This document shows, piece after piece, positions 1-59,469 of a DNA stretch of 64,000 nucleotides. How positions within the stretch are numbered: the first letter of the stretch is position 1; every line of letters starts with the position of its first letter. Origin of the DNA: Acidobacteriota bacterium (GTDB taxonomy: Bacteria > Acidobacteriota > UBA6911 > RPQK01 > JAJDTT01). Where the stretch lies: assembly GCA_028874215.1 (NCBI GenBank), contig JAPPLF010000003.1:103298-167297 (forward strand), written 5' to 3'. Both the position numbers and the translations under genes were made by a program. The notes beneath the pieces were generated by a model. That model was given only the letters and a program-made list of their open reading frames with translations, made no database searches and was not told the DNA's origin.

Positions 1-8
1 TTTTTGCC

Positions 9-605
9 TCAACTTACCCCCCCCCCCCCCCCCCCCCGGCCCCGGCCGGTCCGGGCCGGGGGGGGCCGCCGCCCCCCGGGTCCGCAGGGAGATCCCAAGA
101 GATCGTGGGGAAACTGGAGGACGGAGGGCCGCCGGCGACCGGCGGACAACGCCGCGAACGCTTCGTCCACGGCCGGCGCCAGGTCCGCCGGATCCTCCAC
201 CCGGCGGGCATGACCGGTCACCGACCGGAGCATCCGAAACTGTTTCTTGGGCTCGTGGATCAGCCCCAGACCCTGCTCCCGCTCGCCTCGCGCCACGGTG
301 GTGGTCAGATGCAGCAGGGGAGAGCTGGAATGGTAGGCCTCCCCCACCGCGTGCATGGAGTTGGCCGCGCCGGGCCCGGTGCTGGTGACCAGGACGCCGG
401 GACGGCCGCTGGAACGGGCGTATCCGTCGGCCATGAATCCGCAACCCAGCTCCGACCGTCCGCCGATGTGGCGCACCCGGTCCCGGTAGCGGTGGAGGGC
501 GTCGAAGATATCCAGGTTGTGGATGGAGATGATGCCGAAAAGGAGGTCGACCCCGTGGAGCGACAAACGCTCCACCAGTGCCTCGCCGCCGGTCCTGTTG
601 GCCAT
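9..605 (-). CDS. Truncated thiamine-diphosphate enzyme (acetolactate synthase-like), N-terminal domain
   Basis: Residues about 1-170 form the N-terminal pyrimidine-binding domain of the acetolactate synthase / benzoylformate decarboxylase family. The cofactor-activating Glu lies in RSELGCGFMADGYAR and is followed by the typical TSTGPGAANSMHAVGEA stretch. The family is normally 540-600 aa. Here translation runs into a Gly/Arg/Pro-only tail made by a C21 homopolymer and GC-only sequence, then stops, so the middle and cofactor-binding C-terminal domains are absent. It follows ilvC by 42 nt on the same strand, which fits a role in branched-chain amino acid synthesis, but other ThDP enzymes cannot be excluded. 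The truncation may be an assembly-edge artefact rather than biology. Confidence 0.7.
   Translation of the reverse strand: MANRTGGEALVERLSLHGVDLLFGIISIHNLDIFDALHRYRDRVRHIGGRSELGCGFMADGYARSSGRPGVLVTSTGPGAANSMHAVGEAYHSSSPLLHLTTTVARGEREQGLGLIHEPKKQFRMLRSVTGHARRVEDPADLAPAVDEAFAALSAGRRRPSVLQFPHDLLGSPCGPGGRRPPPARTGRGRGGGGGGVS
17..37. repeat. C21 homopolymer in GC-only tract
   Basis: There are twenty-one consecutive C residues, followed to about position 80 by sequence that is almost entirely G and C. It sits inside the reading frame of the truncated ThDP enzyme and destroys its similarity to the family. This is typical of a sequencing or assembly artefact at a contig end, though a real low-complexity tract is possible. 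Confidence 0.9.
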
Positions 606-647
606 CTCAACTGTCCGGAATCAAGGGCCGCCCCGGCGTTCCATTCG

Positions 648-1706
648 TCATTCCCCGGACTGCCGTTCCGGGCGAAGCTCCCGGACCACCTTGCCGATCC
701 GCCACATCTCCGATTGCTCGACCTCCTTCAACTCCCGGGTGAGGGCCTCCCGGTAGTCGGCGGCCCGGTTCGCAGCCAGGACCCGGCGCGTCTCTTCGCC
801 GCGCGCCACCTTGTCGTAGAGCTCCTCGAAGATGGGGACGTTGGCGTCCCGGAAGCGCTTGAACCAGTCCAGGGCGCCGCGTTGGGCCGTGGTGGAGCAG
901 TTGGCGTACATCCAATCCATCCCGTTCTCGGCGATGAGAGGGTAGAGGCTCTGGGTCGCCTCTTCGACGGTCTCGTTGAAAGCCTCCTGAGGACTGTGGC
1001 CCCGGGCCCGAAGCACCTCGTACTGGGCCAGCCAGAGTCCGTAGATGGCTCCCATCAGGACCCCCCGTTCTCCCGTCAGGTCGCTGTAGACCTCCTTTTT
1101 GAAGTTGGTCTCGAAGAGGAACCCGGACCCGATGGCGATTCCCAGCGCCAGGCAGCGCTCCCGGGCGCGGCCCGTGTAGTCCTGGTCCACCGCGTAGCTG
1201 GAATTGATCCCCCGGCCCTCGAGGAAGAGCCGCCTCACCGTCGTCCCGGATCCCTTGGGCGCCACCAGGATCACGTCGATGTCGGGCGGCGGAACCACGC
1301 CGGTCTGGTCGTTGTAGGTGAGGGCGAACCCGTGGGAAAAGCAGAGGGCGTCGCCCGGTTTGAGGTGGGGCTTGATGTTGGGCCACTGCGCGCCCTGCCC
1401 GGCGTCGCTCAACAGGTACATGACCAGCGTGGACTGCTCCACCACCTGCGTGATGTCCTCGATCAGGTTGACACCCGGGACCCAGCCGTCCTCGACCGCC
1501 TTCTTCCAGCCGTTGCCGCCGCGGCGCTGCCCGACGACCACGTCGATCCCGTTGTCCCGGCAGTTCAGGGACTGCCCGTGGCCCTGAGGGCCGTAGCCAA
1601 TGACGCCGATGCGCTCACGACCCAGAATCTCCCGGACCTTGTCCATGGGGTAGTCGCTGCGTTCGATGACGTCCTCGACATAGTCGCCGATCTGGATTCT
1701 TCTCAT
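648..1706 (-). CDS. ilvC: Ketol-acid reductoisomerase, fungal/Bacteroidetes-like form
   Basis: NADPH- and Mg-dependent isomeroreductase of valine, leucine and isoleucine synthesis. The 352 aa protein has an N-terminal Rossmann domain with the dinucleotide motif GYGPQGHGQSLNCRDNG (about residues 37-53), then DVILVAPKGSGTTVR and EGRGINSSYAV. The C-terminal knotted domain carries the metal-binding DLTGERG and ETVEEATQSLYPLI stretches. Length and the ending WRIGKVVRELRPE match the yeast Ilv5-like branch more closely than the usual enterobacterial or actinobacterial classes. The family call is certain; the branch call is from remembered sequence patterns. It is transcribed divergently from the cupin gene, with a 132 nt gap, and precedes the ThDP gene. 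Confidence 0.96.
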   Translation of the reverse strand: MRRIQIGDYVEDVIERSDYPMDKVREILGRERIGVIGYGPQGHGQSLNCRDNGIDVVVGQRRGGNGWKKAVEDGWVPGVNLIEDITQVVEQSTLVMYLLSDAGQGAQWPNIKPHLKPGDALCFSHGFALTYNDQTGVVPPPDIDVILVAPKGSGTTVRRLFLEGRGINSSYAVDQDYTGRARERCLALGIAIGSGFLFETNFKKEVYSDLTGERGVLMGAIYGLWLAQYEVLRARGHSPQEAFNETVEEATQSLYPLIAENGMDWMYANCSTTAQRGALDWFKRFRDANVPIFEELYDKVARGEETRRVLAANRAADYREALTRELKEVEQSEMWRIGKVVRELRPERQSGE

Positions 1707-1838
1707 AATTCCCTCTCTTCGGAAGATTCGATATGCTTCGCTTGTTCAGCAGGACGAAGGAGCGAGTTTATACCAAATCCTGCGAAGGCGACTCAACAAC
1801 TCCGGGACGCAGTTCCCGCGGGCCGACAAGGAGCAGTC

Positions 1839-2189
1839 ATGCAGATCAAACAGGTTTGGGACCTGACCCGGTTTCGCCCCGAGAAAATGCAAAAGGTGAA
1901 TCTCTTCGAGACCCCCCGCATGTTCTGCGACATCTACTGCTTCGAACCGGGCCAGGAACAGAAGGTTCACTCCCACCGGGGCAACGACAAGATCTACCAC
2001 GTCCTGAAGGGACGCGGCCGTTTTACGGTGGGTGAGGAAACCCACACCCTGGAAGAAGGGGAGGCCACCTGGGCCCCGGCGGGCGAACCCCACGGCGTGC
2101 TCAACCATTCCGGTGATCCTCTGATCTGCCTGGTCTTCATGGCGCCCCATCCCAGACCGGACCGATTCGCGCCGGCGGGTGAAGATTGA
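1839..2189 (+). CDS. Small cupin-domain protein
   Basis: A single-domain cupin of 116 aa. The first cupin motif is VHSHRGNDKIYHVLKGRG (about residues 43-60) and the second contains PAGEPHGVLNHSGD (about 81-94), supplying His residues for a metal site; the usual Glu of motif 1 is not evident. The ATG was chosen because AAGGAG lies a few bases upstream; a much longer frame through this region is antisense to ilvC and was discarded. Its 3' end overlaps the start region of pabB, so the two are probably co-transcribed. Substrate unknown. Confidence 0.82.
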   Translation: MQIKQVWDLTRFRPEKMQKVNLFETPRMFCDIYCFEPGQEQKVHSHRGNDKIYHVLKGRGRFTVGEETHTLEEGEATWAPAGEPHGVLNHSGDPLICLVFMAPHPRPDRFAPAGED

Positions 2190-3693
2190 AGCCATGTATT
2201 GCCGGTCCCTGCCCCTTTCCTCCGACCCGGCCGCGCTGTACGCCCGGCTGAGCCGGTCCCGGGGCCCCTGGGCGGTTCTCGACAGCGGTTGGGACCCCGG
2301 AGGCGCGCGGGGCGGTCCCCTGTCCCGGTTCTGCGTCTGCGCCGTCGACCCGTTCGCCCTCCTCACTGCCCGAGGGGACCGGGCGGTCCTGACCTGGAAA
2401 GACGGCCGTTGCGAAAGAGGATCGACGCTTCCGCTCCTCCGGGACGTACTGAAGCGCTTTCAGCTTCCGGACTCGAACTGGCCCACCCCTTTTCCGGCGG
2501 GGGCCTTGGGATATTTCGGTTACGAGCTCGGGGCTCTGATGGAGCCGGCGTTCGGTGCGCCCCCGAGAGCGGACCAGGAGACCGGCCTCCCCGACCTCTG
2601 GTTGGGTCTGTTCGATTCCGCGGTGACCATCGACCTGGAGCGCGAACGGATCGTGCTCAGCGCCACCGGCCAGCCCGATTCCGGCGGCCGGGCCCGCCAA
2701 CGGGCGGAATCCCGGATTCGGGAGCTGACCGCGGCAGTCGAATCCGCGGTAGCCGCCCCGATGCGCGGCCCCGTACCGGCACCGCCGGCATCCGCTGGCG
2801 GCGACGGCTTCGATTCCAACTTCACTCCTTCCGGGTTCGCCCGGGCCGTCGACCGGATCAAGGAATTCATCGCCGCCGGAGACATCTACCAGGCCAACCT
2901 CTCCCATCGCTTCCGGACACGCTTCAGGAAGGACCCGTTCCGGCTCTTCCTGGATCTGCGCCAGGCGGCCCCCGCCCCATTCTCCGCCTTCCTGGACGGT
3001 GGAGACTTCGCCGTGGTCAGCATGTCGCCGGAACGCTTCCTGCACCTGGACCCGGAGACGCGCCGGGTCGAAACCCGTCCCATCAAGGGCACCCGGCCGC
3101 GCGGGCGAACCGTCACGGAGGACCGCCTCTTGGCCCGGGAGCTCGTCCACAGCGGGAAGGACCGGGCCGAGCACGTCATGATCGTGGACCTGGAGCGGAA
3201 CGACCTGGGCCGGGTGGCGCAGGTGGGCACGGTCCAAGTGAGGGAATTGTCGCTGCTGGAAACCTTCCCCACGCTGTTTCACCTGACCTCGACGGTGGAG
3301 GGGATCCTGGCGCCCGGACGCGACCGCGTGGATCTTCTCAAGGCCACCTTTCCCGGAGGCTCCATCACCGGAGCGCCCAAGATCCGCGCCATGCAGGTGA
3401 TCGACGAGCTGGAGACGGTCCGGCGGGGGATCTACACCGGGTCTCTCGGGTACCTGAGCTTCACCGGCGGGATGGATCTGAACGTGGCCATTCGCACCAT
3501 CGTCGTCCGGGATGGGCGCGCCGAGTTTCACGTGGGCGCCGGAATCGTCGCCGACAGCGACCCGGAGGCGGAATACCAGGAGACGCTGGTCAAGGGACGG
3601 TCCCTGCGGGAGGCCCTGGAGGCCGCCGAAACACGGGATCGCGAGCCCTTTCGCCAAACCGCCTCAAGGTTGCTGGCGGATCGGATTTTCTAA
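2179..3693 (+). CDS. pabB: Aminodeoxychorismate synthase component I (PabB)
   Basis: Chorismate-binding enzyme that makes 4-amino-4-deoxychorismate for folate synthesis. The C-terminal half carries the family signatures IYQANLSHRF, DLERNDLGRV and FPGGSITGAPKIRAM. The decisive motif is PIKGTRPRG: PabB proteins have the active-site Lys (PIKGT), whereas anthranilate synthase TrpE has PIAGT. The protein is 504 aa from a GTG start overlapping the cupin gene; an ATG five codons later is an equally possible start. No PabA glutaminase or PabC lyase gene is in the window. Confidence 0.92.
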   Translation: MKIEAMYCRSLPLSSDPAALYARLSRSRGPWAVLDSGWDPGGARGGPLSRFCVCAVDPFALLTARGDRAVLTWKDGRCERGSTLPLLRDVLKRFQLPDSNWPTPFPAGALGYFGYELGALMEPAFGAPPRADQETGLPDLWLGLFDSAVTIDLERERIVLSATGQPDSGGRARQRAESRIRELTAAVESAVAAPMRGPVPAPPASAGGDGFDSNFTPSGFARAVDRIKEFIAAGDIYQANLSHRFRTRFRKDPFRLFLDLRQAAPAPFSAFLDGGDFAVVSMSPERFLHLDPETRRVETRPIKGTRPRGRTVTEDRLLARELVHSGKDRAEHVMIVDLERNDLGRVAQVGTVQVRELSLLETFPTLFHLTSTVEGILAPGRDRVDLLKATFPGGSITGAPKIRAMQVIDELETVRRGIYTGSLGYLSFTGGMDLNVAIRTIVVRDGRAEFHVGAGIVADSDPEAEYQETLVKGRSLREALEAAETRDREPFRQTASRLLADRIF

Positions 3694-53790: not shown

Positions 53791-55653
53791 ATGAGAGTCG
53801 AGATGCCGTCAGACACCCTGGAAGACGCCCTGTCCGCACTGACGTTGCCGACCCTCCGGAGCATGATGGAACTGCTTCCCGTCCCCAAACCGCGGCCGAA
53901 GCTGAAAGCGGGGATGGTGGACGCCATCCGGCTCCGGCTGACCGGCAAGTCATTGCGTCAACTGTGGGAACGCCTTGACGAAACTCAGCGGCTGGCGGTG
54001 ACGGAAACGCTTACCGGCCTGGGAGTCCGATTCAACGCCAGCCGGTTTCGCGTCAAGTACGGCGTGCTGCCGAAGGGGTTCGACACGGAGAGTTCCGGGA
54101 AGTCTTCGCTGTTGCACTTCTTTCTCTATCCGCCGGACGGCTACCGCATGTTCTTGCCGACCACGATCCCCAGAGATCTCGAGCAAAAGCTCCTCGAGTT
54201 CCTGTCCGAGCCGGCGGCTCCGGCCCTCGTTTCGGTGGACCAGGTTCCGGAGGTCGTCGGTCGCCGCCGGCGCACCCCCGTTCCCCCGGGGCAGAAACGA
54301 AAAGTCGACAGAGTTACTGTGACTCGACGCGATATGGAGCAGGCTGCGTCGTACGACCTGCTGGCGGTGCTTCGTTTGATCGATCAGGGCGGGGTCGCCT
54401 TCGACACCTTTCATCAACGTTCATCCGCAGGGACCCTGAGACGACTCGGGGAGGTGCTTCACGACGGGGACTTTTTCGACGCCGGCAAGGAGCGGGAGTC
54501 CCAGGAGGAGGAGGCCGGACCCATTCGGGCGTTCGCCTGGCCGTGGTTGGTGCAAGCCGGCAAGCTGGCCCAACCGCGCGGGTCCAAACTGGCCTTGACC
54601 GAGGCGGGACGCATGGCCTTCACGGCTCCGCCCGCCGATACGCTCCGGCGAATCTGGCGGTCGTGGCTGAAGAATACGTTGTTGGACGAGTTCAGCCGCA
54701 TGGACGAGATCAAGGGCCAGCACTGGGTGCCGGGCAGACCGACCATGACGGCGCCGCGCAAGCGCCGGCCAGTTGTCGCCGCGGCGCTCGCGGAATGTCC
54801 CTTGGGCCGGTGGGTCCAGGTGGACGAGTTCTTTCGCTTCATGCTGGCGGCGCATCCGGATTTCGATGTGACGCGTTTTCCTTGGCGTCTCTACGTCGGC
54901 GAGATCCAGCATGGCAACTTCTCAGAGGCCGACAATCAGGAGTGGAGCCTTCTCCCGGGCCGCTATGTCCTGTGTCTGTTGTTCGAGTACGCGGCCACGC
55001 TCGGCTTAGTGGACGTCGCGTTCACGGATCCACGCGGAGCGCGGCCTGATTACTGGCACATCTGGGGCACGGAAGAAATGGAATTCCTCAGCCGTTACGA
55101 CGGGCTGGAATATTTTCGGCTCAATCCGCTTGGTGCCTACTGTCTCGGCCGGACCGACAGATATGAGCCGGCGATTCCTCCGCGTCGTACCCGCCTGACC
55201 CTCTTCAGCGACCTTCGAGTACAGTCGTCGGCTCCACTGCCGCCGCCGGAACGCGTGCTGTTGGAGATCTACGCCGAGCCGGAGTCCGACGGGAGATGGC
55301 GGCTGGATCTCTCTCGCTCTCTTTCGGCCGTCGAGCGCGGTCACGACGTGACGCAACTGGGAAAGTTTCTCGCCGCCCGCGACGATCAACCGTTGCCCGA
55401 AAGGGTCGAGGGGTTTCTCCGCACCGTCGAGCTCGGTGGGCGCGCCCTGAAGCCGGAGGGGGCGGCCGTGTTGATCAAGTGCGCGAGCAAGGAGATCGCG
55501 GACCGGATTGTCGCCGACCAACAGGCCGCCAAGTACTGCAGGCGCGCCGGTTCGCTCCGGCTCGTCGTTCCCGCAAAATCAGAAGCCAAGTTTCGCCGGG
55601 CGGCCCATGCCCTGGGATACGCTCTGTCCCTGCCCAGACGATCTCTTCGTTGA
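53791..55653 (+). CDS. Large uncharacterised protein, tandem paralogue 1 (weak helicase-associated similarity)
   Basis: A 620 aa soluble protein, not confidently recognised. It closely resembles the next gene product over its full length; shared blocks include LLHFFLYPPDG, MEQAASYDLLAVLRLID, RAFAWPWLVQAGKL, CPLGRWVQVDEFFRFM and RYDGLEYFRLNPLGAYCL. The C-terminal about 150 residues (LTLFSDLRVQSSAPLPPPER, LPERVEGFL) resemble the XPB/Ssl2-like helicase-associated (Helicase_C_3) module, but no Walker motifs are present. It may bind DNA or a helicase partner. Located between decayed toxin-antitoxin loci and an AAA/nuclease gene. Confidence 0.55.
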   Translation: MRVEMPSDTLEDALSALTLPTLRSMMELLPVPKPRPKLKAGMVDAIRLRLTGKSLRQLWERLDETQRLAVTETLTGLGVRFNASRFRVKYGVLPKGFDTESSGKSSLLHFFLYPPDGYRMFLPTTIPRDLEQKLLEFLSEPAAPALVSVDQVPEVVGRRRRTPVPPGQKRKVDRVTVTRRDMEQAASYDLLAVLRLIDQGGVAFDTFHQRSSAGTLRRLGEVLHDGDFFDAGKERESQEEEAGPIRAFAWPWLVQAGKLAQPRGSKLALTEAGRMAFTAPPADTLRRIWRSWLKNTLLDEFSRMDEIKGQHWVPGRPTMTAPRKRRPVVAAALAECPLGRWVQVDEFFRFMLAAHPDFDVTRFPWRLYVGEIQHGNFSEADNQEWSLLPGRYVLCLLFEYAATLGLVDVAFTDPRGARPDYWHIWGTEEMEFLSRYDGLEYFRLNPLGAYCLGRTDRYEPAIPPRRTRLTLFSDLRVQSSAPLPPPERVLLEIYAEPESDGRWRLDLSRSLSAVERGHDVTQLGKFLAARDDQPLPERVEGFLRTVELGGRALKPEGAAVLIKCASKEIADRIVADQQAAKYCRRAGSLRLVVPAKSEAKFRRAAHALGYALSLPRRSLR

Positions 55654-55703
55654 ACTCGATGTATCCTGCGGTCGACGACCTTCGAATTCGGAGACCCTGA
55701 GCC

Positions 55704-57551
55704 ATGAGAATCGAACTGCCGTCCGCCACCGTGGAGAAAGCTCTGTCGGCACTGATGGTCCCGACCCTCAAACCCATGATGGGGTTGCTGTCGATTCGCA
55801 AGCCGCGACCGACACGGAAGGCCGGCATGGTGGAGTCCATCTTGCCCCGGCTGACTGGCAGGTCGTTACGAGACCTGTGGAAGCGGCTCAACCGAACCCA
55901 GCAGTTGGCGGTGAAGGAGACGCTCTATGGCCTGGAGGGCCGATTCAACGCCCAACGGTTTCGCGCCAAGTACGGAGTGCTGCCGAGGGGTATCGACCGG
56001 GGCGAAACTGAGAAACCGACCCTGTTGCACTTGTTTCTCTACCCGCCGGACGGCGAACGGTATCGTCCCCCGACCACCATTCCCAGCGACCTCCGGAAGC
56101 AGCTCCGGGAGTTTGTTCCCGAGCCGGAGTTCCCGACCGTCGCCTCGGTGGAGGAAGCTCCGGATTTCGTCGATCGGCGCCGGAGCGGATTTGTTCCCAA
56201 GGGGCAGAAACCGAAGTTCGACAGAGTGTCCCTGAATTGCCGCAACATGGAGCAGGCTGCGGCGTACGACCTGCTGGCCGTGCTCCGCCTCATCGATGCC
56301 GGCAGGATCTCCATCAGCAGGAAGACCCGGCGCGCGTCCGCGGTCTCCGTGCGACGCGTCGCGGAGGTGCTTTACGACGGCGACTTTTACGACGCAACCG
56401 AGAAGAAGAAGCGGTGGACACAGTTCGTCGGCCCCATCCGGTCCTTCGCCTGGCCCTGGTTGGTGCAGGCCGGCAAGCTTTCCCAGTTGCGCGGCTCCAA
56501 GCTGGCGTTGACCAAGGCCGGACGCGCGGCCTTCACGGCGCTGCCCGCCGAGACCCTCCGGCGGACCTGGAAAGCTTGGCTGAAGAACACCCTGTTGGAC
56601 GAGTTCAGCCGGGTGGAGGAGATCAAGGGGCAGACCCGGGGCCGGGGCAAACGGACGATGACCGCGCCGCGCAACCGCCGGCCCTGGGTCGACGAGGCGC
56701 TCGCGGAATGTCCGGTCGGCCGGTGGGTTCAGGTGGACGAGTTCTTTCGGTTTATGCAGGCGGCGGAACTGGACTTCAGCGTCACGCGGTATCCCTGGCA
56801 CCTCTACCTCGGCGGGCCGGAGCACGGGAGCTTCGGGCTTGCCGGTGATCAGAGTTGGAACGCGCTGCAGGGGCGATATGTCCTGTGCCTGTTGTTCGAG
56901 TACGCGGCCACCCTGGGCATGGTGGACGTGGCGTTCACCGACCCGCGCCACGCGCGGCGCGATTACATCGGCCTGTGGGGCGCCGATGATCTGGAGTTCC
57001 TCAGCCGGTACGATGGCCTGGAGTATTTTCGACTCAATCCGCTCGGCGCCTATTGCCTCGATCAGGCCGACATTTACGAGCCGGCCGCGCCTCCGGTCCG
57101 AACGGCGCTGACCCTGTTTACCGATCTTCGCGTGCAGTCGACGGCGCCGCTGCGGCCGGAAGAACGTGTGCTGCTGGAGACCTATGCCAAGACCGTGTCG
57201 GACGGCGTCTGGCGTCTGGATCTCGCTCGAGCCATGTCGGCCGTGGAAAGCGGCCAGGATGTGGCGCAATTGAGGGAGTTTCTCACCGCGCGCAAAGATC
57301 AGCCCCTGCCGGACCGGGTGGAAGGGTTTTTCCGCCGTGTCGAGCAGGGATCGCGAGCCCTGACCGCGAAGGGACAGGCCCTGATCATCGAATGCGCGGA
57401 CAAGGAGATCGCCGACCGTATCGTGGCCGATCCGCGGGCTACCAAGCACTGCATCCGTGCCGGCCCGCGCCGGCTCGTCGTTGCCACAAGATCCGAGGCG
57501 GCGTTTCGGAAGGCGGCGCATGCCTTGGGTTACGCGTTTTCCGTGCGGTGA
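55704..57551 (+). CDS. Large uncharacterised protein, tandem paralogue 2
   Basis: A 615 aa paralogue of the preceding product: MRIELPSATVEKALSAL versus MRVEMPSDTLEDALSAL at the start, and well over half of positions identical by eye. The conserved central block CPVGRWVQVDEFFRFMQAAE and the C-terminal LTLFTDLRVQSTAPLRPEER segment are retained. It begins 50 nt after paralogue 1 without its own obvious promoter. Both copies are intact, so the duplication has been kept by selection, perhaps as two subunits or two specificities. Function unknown. Confidence 0.55.
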   Translation: MRIELPSATVEKALSALMVPTLKPMMGLLSIRKPRPTRKAGMVESILPRLTGRSLRDLWKRLNRTQQLAVKETLYGLEGRFNAQRFRAKYGVLPRGIDRGETEKPTLLHLFLYPPDGERYRPPTTIPSDLRKQLREFVPEPEFPTVASVEEAPDFVDRRRSGFVPKGQKPKFDRVSLNCRNMEQAAAYDLLAVLRLIDAGRISISRKTRRASAVSVRRVAEVLYDGDFYDATEKKKRWTQFVGPIRSFAWPWLVQAGKLSQLRGSKLALTKAGRAAFTALPAETLRRTWKAWLKNTLLDEFSRVEEIKGQTRGRGKRTMTAPRNRRPWVDEALAECPVGRWVQVDEFFRFMQAAELDFSVTRYPWHLYLGGPEHGSFGLAGDQSWNALQGRYVLCLLFEYAATLGMVDVAFTDPRHARRDYIGLWGADDLEFLSRYDGLEYFRLNPLGAYCLDQADIYEPAAPPVRTALTLFTDLRVQSTAPLRPEERVLLETYAKTVSDGVWRLDLARAMSAVESGQDVAQLREFLTARKDQPLPDRVEGFFRRVEQGSRALTAKGQALIIECADKEIADRIVADPRATKHCIRAGPRRLVVATRSEAAFRKAAHALGYAFSVR

Positions 57552-57664
57552 CGGCGGCGTAAAGAGAACCGACCCCCGAACCCGTTCCTCCGACGTTCCG
57601 AAAAATGGCTGAAGCCGGTTTTCGGGACACTGCGTGACCTAAGACAACGTGCGATACTCAAAGC

Positions 57665-59278
57665 GTGCGTTTCTTCAACACCGCCGGTCCGATCAACCCG
57701 GAGATGCACTACAGCATCCCACCCCTGGAACGCCTCGATGCCGATGATCTCCTGTTGCTCATCCGGCAATGGAAGTACTTCGTGCTGCACGCGCCGCGCC
57801 AGACGGGCAAGACCTCTGCGTTGCTGGCGTTGAGGGACCAACTCAACCTGGTTGGCGAGTTCCGTTGCGTGTACGTCAACGTCGAAGGCGGCCAAACGGC
57901 GCGGGAGGACGTGCGGGAGGGCGTGCGAGCGATTCTCAGCGCTCTGGCCAGAGCGGCGCGCCACGGGCTCGACGACTTGTTCGTAGCCGAGGTCTGGCGT
58001 GACATCCTCGAAGGATCCGGTCCCAACGATGCACTTGGGGACACACTGGCTCGCTGGTCCGAAGCCGATGCGAAACCGCTGGTGCTCCTGATCGACGAGA
58101 TCGATTCCCTGATTGGCGACACCCTGCTTGCGGTGTTGCGGCAACTCCGGGCCGGCTATCCGGACCGCCCGCGCCGGTTTCCCCAGAGCGTGATCCTGTG
58201 CGGCGTGCGCGACGTGCGCGACTATCGCATTCAGTCTGCAGCGGAGAACCAGATCATCGCCGGCGGCAGCGCCTTCAACATTCGCGCCGAATCCCTGCGG
58301 CTGGGAGACTTCTCGCGGCGTGACGTCGAGTCCCTGCTGGGGCAGCACACCGACGAGTCGGGACAGGTGTTCACGGACGAGGCACGAGGCGAGATCTGGG
58401 AGTTGACCCAGGGACAGCCGTGGTTGGTGAACGCCTTGGCCTACGAAGCGTGTTTCAGGAACAAGACCGGACGGGACCGCAGCCGGGAGATCGCCGGAGA
58501 AGCCATCCAGGACGCATGCGAACAATTGATCCTCCGACGAGAAACGCATCTGGACCAGCTCACGGACAAGCTTCAGGAAGAGCGGGTACGCCGGGTAATT
58601 GAACCGCTGTTGGAAGGCTCCGACGCCGTCGACTCGATTCCAGCCGATGATCTGGAGTATGCGCGCGACCTGGGCCTTGTGACGAGAACCCGCCCCGTCG
58701 CCATCGCCAATCCCATTTACCGGGAGGTGATCCCCCGCGATCTGACCTACACGACGCAGGAGATGTCGATCCATCAGGATCCCGCATGGTACATCGACGA
58801 TGACGGCGCCCTGCGGGTCGGAAAGTTGCTGACCGCGTTCCAGGAGTTCTTTCGGGAGCACTCGGAGCACTGGGTGGAGCGGTTCCAGTACAAGGAAGCC
58901 GGTCCGCAGTTGCTGTTGCAGGCATTCCTGCAGCGTATCGTCAACAGCGGCGGGCGGATCGAGCGCGAGTACGGATTGGGCCGGCGGCGGACCGACCTGC
59001 TGATGGTGTGGCCTGTGGGCGGACGCTCCGGCGAGACGAGAGCCGGGACGGATCGGCCGGCGCAGAAGGTGGTCGTCGAATGCAAGGTGCTGCGCCGAAG
59101 CCTCGACGAGACGCTCCGCGAGGGTCTGGCGCAGACGCGCGCCTACATGGACCGCTGCACTGCGGCGGAGGGACACTTGGTGATTTTCGACCGCACCGAG
59201 GGCAAGCCGTGGGTAGAAAAGATCTATCGCCGCAACGAGACGGAAGGCGGCGCGCCGGTGACCGTGTGGGGGATGTGA
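57665..59278 (+). CDS. AAA ATPase with C-terminal PD-(D/E)XK nuclease-like domain
   Basis: A 537 aa protein. The N-terminal ATPase has Walker A HAPRQTGKTSALL (about residues 42-54), Walker B LVLLIDEIDSLIGD (about 139-152) and sensor-like SVILCGVRDVRDY, as in archaeal-type AAA ATPases. A winged-helix-like middle follows (YARDLGLVTRTRPVAIANPI). The C-terminus has YGLGRRRTDLLMVWP and VVVECKVLRR: Asp then ExK, the PD-(D/E)XK core. Such ATPase-nuclease proteins occur in defence and mobile islands. The start is GTG. It lies 113 nt after paralogue 2. Confidence 0.78.
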   Translation: MRFFNTAGPINPEMHYSIPPLERLDADDLLLLIRQWKYFVLHAPRQTGKTSALLALRDQLNLVGEFRCVYVNVEGGQTAREDVREGVRAILSALARAARHGLDDLFVAEVWRDILEGSGPNDALGDTLARWSEADAKPLVLLIDEIDSLIGDTLLAVLRQLRAGYPDRPRRFPQSVILCGVRDVRDYRIQSAAENQIIAGGSAFNIRAESLRLGDFSRRDVESLLGQHTDESGQVFTDEARGEIWELTQGQPWLVNALAYEACFRNKTGRDRSREIAGEAIQDACEQLILRRETHLDQLTDKLQEERVRRVIEPLLEGSDAVDSIPADDLEYARDLGLVTRTRPVAIANPIYREVIPRDLTYTTQEMSIHQDPAWYIDDDGALRVGKLLTAFQEFFREHSEHWVERFQYKEAGPQLLLQAFLQRIVNSGGRIEREYGLGRRRTDLLMVWPVGGRSGETRAGTDRPAQKVVVECKVLRRSLDETLREGLAQTRAYMDRCTAAEGHLVIFDRTEGKPWVEKIYRRNETEGGAPVTVWGM

Positions 59279-59391
59279 GGGATGCTCGGCGGTCCGTGGA
59301 CATCCTGATAATCGGCGCCGGTTCGCGCCGCGAATCTGAGCTTGCTCGGTGGGCGAGTATGACCCGTGCCCGTCGTCACCGAAACACCTGT

Positions 59392-59469
59392 TTACCTGAG
59401 CACTTCAAACGCCAACCCGCGCCCACGGCCGTACCGGTAGTTCGTGAAATCGCTGTCAAGGGCGATCAT
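59392..59469 (-). pseudogene. Possible PIN-toxin remnant
   Basis: A 25-codon frame, MIALDSDFTNYRYGRG followed by LAFEVLR, downstream of the antitoxin-like gene on the same strand, where a toxin would be expected. The LDSDF...Y pattern resembles part of a PIN domain. Much too short to be functional. Tentative. Confidence 0.25.

Follow-up and report, generated by a model that had tools for sequence, protein, structure and literature searches.

In the window analysed here, a stretch of 64,000 nucleotides (nt) from the 5.7 Mb metagenome-assembled genome of an acidobacterium, two neighbouring genes, paralogues A and B, encode proteins resembling p52/Tfb2 (GTF2H4), a subunit of transcription factor IIH (TFIIH) and the partner of the XPB translocase. 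We consider it probable that A and B are duplicated p52-like adaptors that occur as orphans, are related to an XPB-p52 pair of bacteria and serve a different motor, in DNA processing or in defence. The evidence for the fold is strong, and the function is what we infer from it. The computations covered gene structure, family and fold matches, linkage and co-occurrence with XPB, the absence of XPB here and purifying selection.

The two proteins are 66% identical over 614 aligned residues with zero gaps, and an AAA ATPase with a nuclease motif follows them on the same strand; 50 nt separate A from B and 113 nt separate B from the ATPase gene. This agrees with the first-pass annotation of the stretch, which had described two intact proteins of 615-620 amino acids (aa), alike throughout, and an ATPase carrying Walker A/B and a C-terminal D...ExK core, all in one direction. 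Since orthologues occur in three congeneric genomes (G001, G002 and G003) and omega (the ratio of nonsynonymous to synonymous substitution rates) is low, all three are real genes. Omega is 0.28-0.38 between orthologues within each paralogue line, 0.35-0.40 between paralogues and 0.14-0.20 for the ATPase-nuclease. All copies are maintained as proteins, the p52-like ones under looser constraint than the ATPase. A reading of A and B as pseudogenes was rejected on account of the purifying selection on their lines.

The paralogues had at first been assigned to no clear family, which no longer holds, and their C-termini had been said to recall weakly the helicase-associated domains of XPB/Ssl2, a hint that proved to be the key. 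Both proteins match PF13625 (Helicase_C_3) at residues 473-582, with E 2e-5 for A and 2.4e-7 for B; in the protein scan both stay under the cut-off of 34.2 bits, whereas in the genome scan B exceeds it. This domain is also found at the XPB N-terminus and in 17 of the 18 family members; in A and B it stands at the C-terminus without helicase motifs, as in bacterial XPB-associated PF13625 proteins. Profile-profile comparison related the A/B family to the XPB N-terminal domain (E 4e-5) and to the XPB-associated proteins (E 7e-12 and 3e-13; negative control 0.18). In the known p52, the clutch (residues 306-399) folds like the XPB N-terminal domain, and XPB is recruited through a pseudo-symmetric dimer of the two (PMC6422496).

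Structure prediction extended this likeness to the middle of both proteins. With an AlphaFold model of B (9 sequences; predicted local distance difference test, pLDDT, 66) as query, Foldseek against the PDB placed p52/Tfb2 at all of ranks 1-8 (best E 1.5e-3) and VIA-align at all of ranks 1-20 (best Z 9.5 over 157 residues). A second model, of A residues 139-620, was run separately (pLDDT 71); here p52 or XPB/Ssl2 filled Foldseek ranks 1-33 (E 4.8e-6 to 1.1, the first unrelated chain following at E 1.2), and p52 or XPB filled VIA-align ranks 1-29 (Z 11.6 down to 6.8, first unrelated Z 6.3). On its own, the winged-helix half of A matches 6tru_B, a crystal structure of the clutch-free N-terminal half of p52 (Z 10.1, 164 residues, 4.1 A); the A clutch superposes on the XPB N-terminal domain over 85-90 residues at 2.0-2.6 A. 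The collinear p52 alignment of A reaches p52 residue 403; towards the p8-binding end of p52, the B model was aligned to residue 459-461 at very high root-mean-square deviation (rmsd), the A model only to 403. The p52 match is not a common one, because p52's domains other than the clutch had no significant structural relatives in the crystal-structure paper (PMC7708078). On these models it is highly probable that A and B share a p52-like fold, a winged-helix array and then a clutch. Being p52-like in fold and, probably, in manner of working, they are not filed in the Tfb2 family.

It might be argued that A and B are stand-alone winged-helix DNA-binding proteins, regulators of transcription or of plasmids and defence islands, with a mere shared-fold likeness to p52. 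Individual winged-helix domains do match MarR/PadR regulators at Z 5-6, and most relatives are orphans. Nevertheless, every regulator ranks far below p52, whose match runs through several domains in the order found in A and B, the clutch coming last. PF13625 is in addition a diagnostic sequence feature, and some members stand in operon-like order with XPB. We regard this explanation as quite improbable.

The link with XPB is seen both in gene order and in co-occurrence. In two acidobacterial genomes (G014 and G015), an XPB helicase gene (PF16203 E 3e-46, with PF13625 at the XPB N-terminus) lies 3 nt downstream of a family member, and on a cyanobacterial plasmid of Gloeocapsopsis it lies 1 nt downstream; these XPB-adjacent members form a moderately supported branch (93/91). 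Across 396 Acidobacteriota genomes, a second PF13625 protein was present in 55 of 55 XPB-bearing genomes, defined by a strong XPB-type PF13625 match and spanning 21 genera (the genomes are not independent), versus 9 of 341 others. Of the nine exceptions, four belong to the window's genus and a fifth is G341 with its orphan; two more, G084 and G339, carry an XPB-like gene at least in part. The XPB-associated proteins measure 390-860 aa and number about one per XPB. XPB was not found in G000 (the window's genome), G001-G003, G203, G319 and G341, all of which hold a p52-like gene; the absence is firm in G203 because this genome is a single contig. Because it is encoded beside or together with XPB where XPB is kept, the p52-like protein type is most likely the bacterial XPB partner, and by analogy with p52 we lean towards the view that the operon-linked family members act in that way. 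From their sequences, the second PF13625 proteins of XPB-bearing genomes are candidates for the general counterparts of p52 in bacteria and stand apart from the A/B branch. Such loci include L081 (G008:C112), L084 (G011:C832), L082 (G019:C73) and L087 (G282:C11). In L083 (G006:C318), positions 3-3654 hold two different PF13625 proteins in tandem, of at least 434 aa and of 781 aa, a second case of neighbouring XPB-associated genes.

Several points weigh against reading A and B as p52-like adaptors. Both models are moderate (pLDDT 71 and 66, from 9-10 sequences) and share most alignment rows, so that one is a replicate of the other rather than a fully independent test. Differing domain angles keep the whole-chain TM-scores low (about 0.2), and sequence identity to p52 in the structural alignments is about 10-15%. 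The first 140 residues of A and B have no p52 counterpart in the alignments. Members of the A/B family gave zero matches to Pfam Tfb2 (PF03849) up to E 10, and a PDB sequence search with the family profile returned a chance FtsY stretch and zero p52. Four XPB-associated proteins match Pfam Tfb2 weakly (E 7.8e-5 to 0.13), below the curated cut-off and in the clutch only; in a Tfb2 scan of the phylum, six matches reached E <=0.05, and four of the six, including the two best, fall in XPB-associated ORFs (open reading frames). The general XPB-associated proteins are tied to the A/B family by profile comparison only, and the fusion of winged-helix arrays to a clutch may have happened repeatedly. 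The window is not a defence island, and DNA binding and any partner within the genus are predictions.

Besides the paralogues, the third gene needs to be considered. The three genes had been proposed as a possible module, and one could imagine a dedicated defence or DNA-processing system in which the AAA-nuclease cuts DNA that A and B have sensed or opened. The ATPase-nuclease lies downstream of the array in three genomes: in G000 and G001 it directly follows a paralogue, and in G002 it comes 1.35 kb later, beyond an unrelated segment. It is under strong purifying selection. Its Walker A (APRQTGKT), Walker B (LLIDE), D444, E472 and K474 are invariant in six aligned sequences with 61-84% identity to the window's. 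In addition, one relative of the paralogues (in L018) is preceded by a gene for a 1401-aa AAA_11/AAA_12 helicase (L018:1670-5875), with a weak PD-(D/E)XK match and a resemblance to DpdJ/Mko defence helicases, which ends about 20 nt upstream. Against such a system, the ATPase-nuclease and the paralogues each occur without the other. Further ATPase-nuclease copies lie at unrelated places in G000 and G001; G011 has six matches covering at least 60% of the length plus one fragment, with paralogues absent. Full-length relatives share 60-80% identity in Acidobacteriota and 39-43% on plasmids of Brasilonema and Pseudanabaena, the cyanobacterial plasmid relatives standing alone without p52-like genes. 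Conversely, no ATPase-nuclease was found near the paralogues' relatives in G014, G015, G034 or on plasmids, so that the three genes are neighbours in no genome outside the genus. A PDB sequence search with the ATPase gave weak proteasomal ATPase matches only. The proposed module is therefore not supported, and we give a dedicated three-gene system little credence. The ATPase-nuclease forms a multi-copy family with dispersed members, and its place beside the paralogues is conserved only within the genus; the family may be a dispersed or selfish element, and its member here is at most a facultative partner and probably no dedicated subunit. An orthologous second copy stands among housekeeping-type genes at G000:C49:43441-45036 (L070) and G001:C274 (L071).

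Relatives of A and B come from Acidobacteriota, one Planctomycetota contig and plasmids of Cupriavidus, Polaromonas, Gloeocapsopsis, Shewanella and Rhodococcus. The family is patchy, partly plasmid-borne and mostly orphan. A housekeeping role was rejected, as only 10 of the 396 Acidobacteriota genomes hold the family. One fragment was found among viral contigs and none in phages, hence A/B is not a phage gene family. Several orphan neighbourhoods suggest a link to defence. Wadjet genes follow the orphan on Cupriavidus plasmids (jetABCD annotated in one, a JetA-type ORF downstream in two others), Hachiman hamAB lies 0.6 kb from that of Polaromonas, type I restriction subunits lie near that of G341, and a DNA-methyltransferase-type gene is located near the p52-like/XPB pair of G014. 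Together with the patchy distribution and fairly fast evolution, these would fit an orphan p52-like anti-phage or anti-plasmid factor, a defence gene in its own right amplified here; this overlaps with the adaptor explanation and specifies its role. Yet the neighbour counts come without a background rate, and the Cupriavidus cases are one lineage. No recognised defence neighbours were found in the window, Shewanella, G034, G203 or L019, none of the three proteins of the window matched a PADLOC model up to E 1, and NCBIfam gave nothing for them. As a specific role it is possible, though on the unlikely side. The multi-subunit defence or DNA-processing system first suggested is possible in so far as relatives sit beside Wadjet, Hachiman, type I restriction and XPB, but not in the sense of a defence island in the window.

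Within the genus, the paralogue array is dynamic. It reads A-B in G000, alpha-B in G002 and alpha-A-B in G003 (B cut by a contig end), with B and alpha on two contig ends in G001; remnants of this third paralogue, alpha, were not found in the window. In the tree, alpha, A and B group as a genus-specific expansion (94/95), A with B at 99/98, and the single-copy relatives of G203/G341 come next. In eukaryotes, p52 grips the N-terminal domain of XPB with its clutch and regulates the XPB ATPase (p52 literature; clutch pairing in PMC6422496). According to the models, fold and domain order of A and B are those of p52, and the operon-linked bacterial members would do likewise with XPB. In XPB-less genomes, the winged helices may still bind nucleic acid or protein, and the clutch may engage either a second clutch, as between A and B, or a different motor. 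The window's genus has kept a p52-like gene without XPB and amplified it to two or three tandem, diverging, selectively maintained copies. A and B would most likely be DNA-binding adaptors whose clutches hold another motor, a nuclease or each other, in an accessory DNA-processing or defence role; any particular role in this genus is tentative. A broader proposal, which we think rather doubtful, is that the bacterial XPB-p52 pair, the TFIIH translocase core, is a stable two-gene unit, that p52 is also a free, mobile and duplicating family serving other motors in defence islands, and that A-B clutch pairing replaces XPB in this genus.

The coordinates of the features are listed in Table 1. The flanks are ordinary, with a sigma factor and a secretin-like gene upstream and an M24 peptidase and a cupin protein downstream. 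Between these genes and the three-gene stretch sit toxin-antitoxin remnants, as had been noted from the decayed borders; the PIN gene is intact in G002 and G001. The segment 53219-53688, which holds the upstream antitoxin-like ORF, is 90% identical to the G002 segment between B and ATPase. The GGGGACAG repeats reported at the borders do exist but are not specific to the island, with 38 copies dispersed across the genome, and were rejected as part of the system. The pattern AAGGGGACAGTC occurs at 38 genome positions, including 53135, 53703 and 59844, and a control pattern at 0; these are dispersed and REP-like (repetitive extragenic palindromic).

Table 1. Features of the p52-like locus and its borders, with positions in the window.
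Feature	Position	Strand	Evidence
Paralogue A, p52/Tfb2-like	53791..55653	+	Open ORF, 620 aa
A winged-helix array, residues 142-455	54214..55155	+	Matches N-terminal half of p52 (p52 about 121-319); VIA-align Z 10.1, 164 residues, rmsd 4.1 to 6tru_B
A clutch domain, residues 464-556 (as in p52 and XPB N-terminal domain)	55180..55458	+	PF13625 at 473-582; rmsd 2.0-2.6 over 85-90 residues to XPB N-terminal domain; collinear with p52 clutch
Paralogue B, p52/Tfb2-like	55704..57551	+	Open ORF, 615 aa; AlphaFold and Foldseek
B winged-helix array, residues 142-456	56127..57068	+	VIA-align Z 9.5, 157 residues, rmsd 3.9 to 6tru_C (N-terminal half of p52)
B clutch domain, residues 464-556	57093..57371	+	Gapless alignment to A; PF13625 E 2.4e-7, residues 473-582
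AAA ATPase with C-terminal PD-(D/E)XK-type nuclease motif, 537 aa	57665..59278	+	PF13401 (AAA_22) E 3.8e-10
Antitoxin-like ORF, 85 aa	53371..53628	+	No Pfam match
Remnant overlapping PIN-toxin gene end	59362..59468	-	blastn 77% to L020:13796-13902
Ribbon-helix-helix antitoxin-like ORF, 94 aa	59497..59781	-	Weak NikA-like/FitA-like ribbon-helix-helix matches below curated cut-offs

XPB is present in all domains of life, and a recent review describes the function of bacterial and archaeal XPB as still elusive (2026; PMC13024598). An earlier study states that, for the other TFIIH subunits, bacterial homologues had yet to be identified (2012; PMC3353954). No description of bacterial p52 homologues was found in the open-licence literature, a scope outside which most subscription papers fall, so that priority is not proven. 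A p52-like protein encoded with XPB offers a testable handle on the role and partners of bacterial XPB. Such proteins also bear on the origin of TFIIH and supply an identity for many proteins labelled 'hypothetical' or 'helicase-associated domain', and the existence of orphans in tandem suggests a scaffold able to persist without its motor.

Compared with known systems, A and B are closest to TFIIH p52/Tfb2, the best structural match of both models, with winged-helix array and clutch in the same order and with relatives encoded beside XPB, p52's own partner. Unlike p52, they are bacterial, occur in tandem copies and have no XPB in the genome; the first ~120 residues of p52, its p34-binding part, have no counterpart in them, and no other TFIIH subunit was seen. 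The bacterial XPB-associated PF13625 proteins, found beside XPB in G008, G011 and G019, share the C-terminal clutch with A and B, whereas the A/B family is a distinct branch of 590-640 aa. The third gene belongs to an AAA ATPase/PD-(D/E)XK 'ATP-binding protein' family of Acidobacteriota and cyanobacterial plasmids, which outside the genus has no p52-like link.

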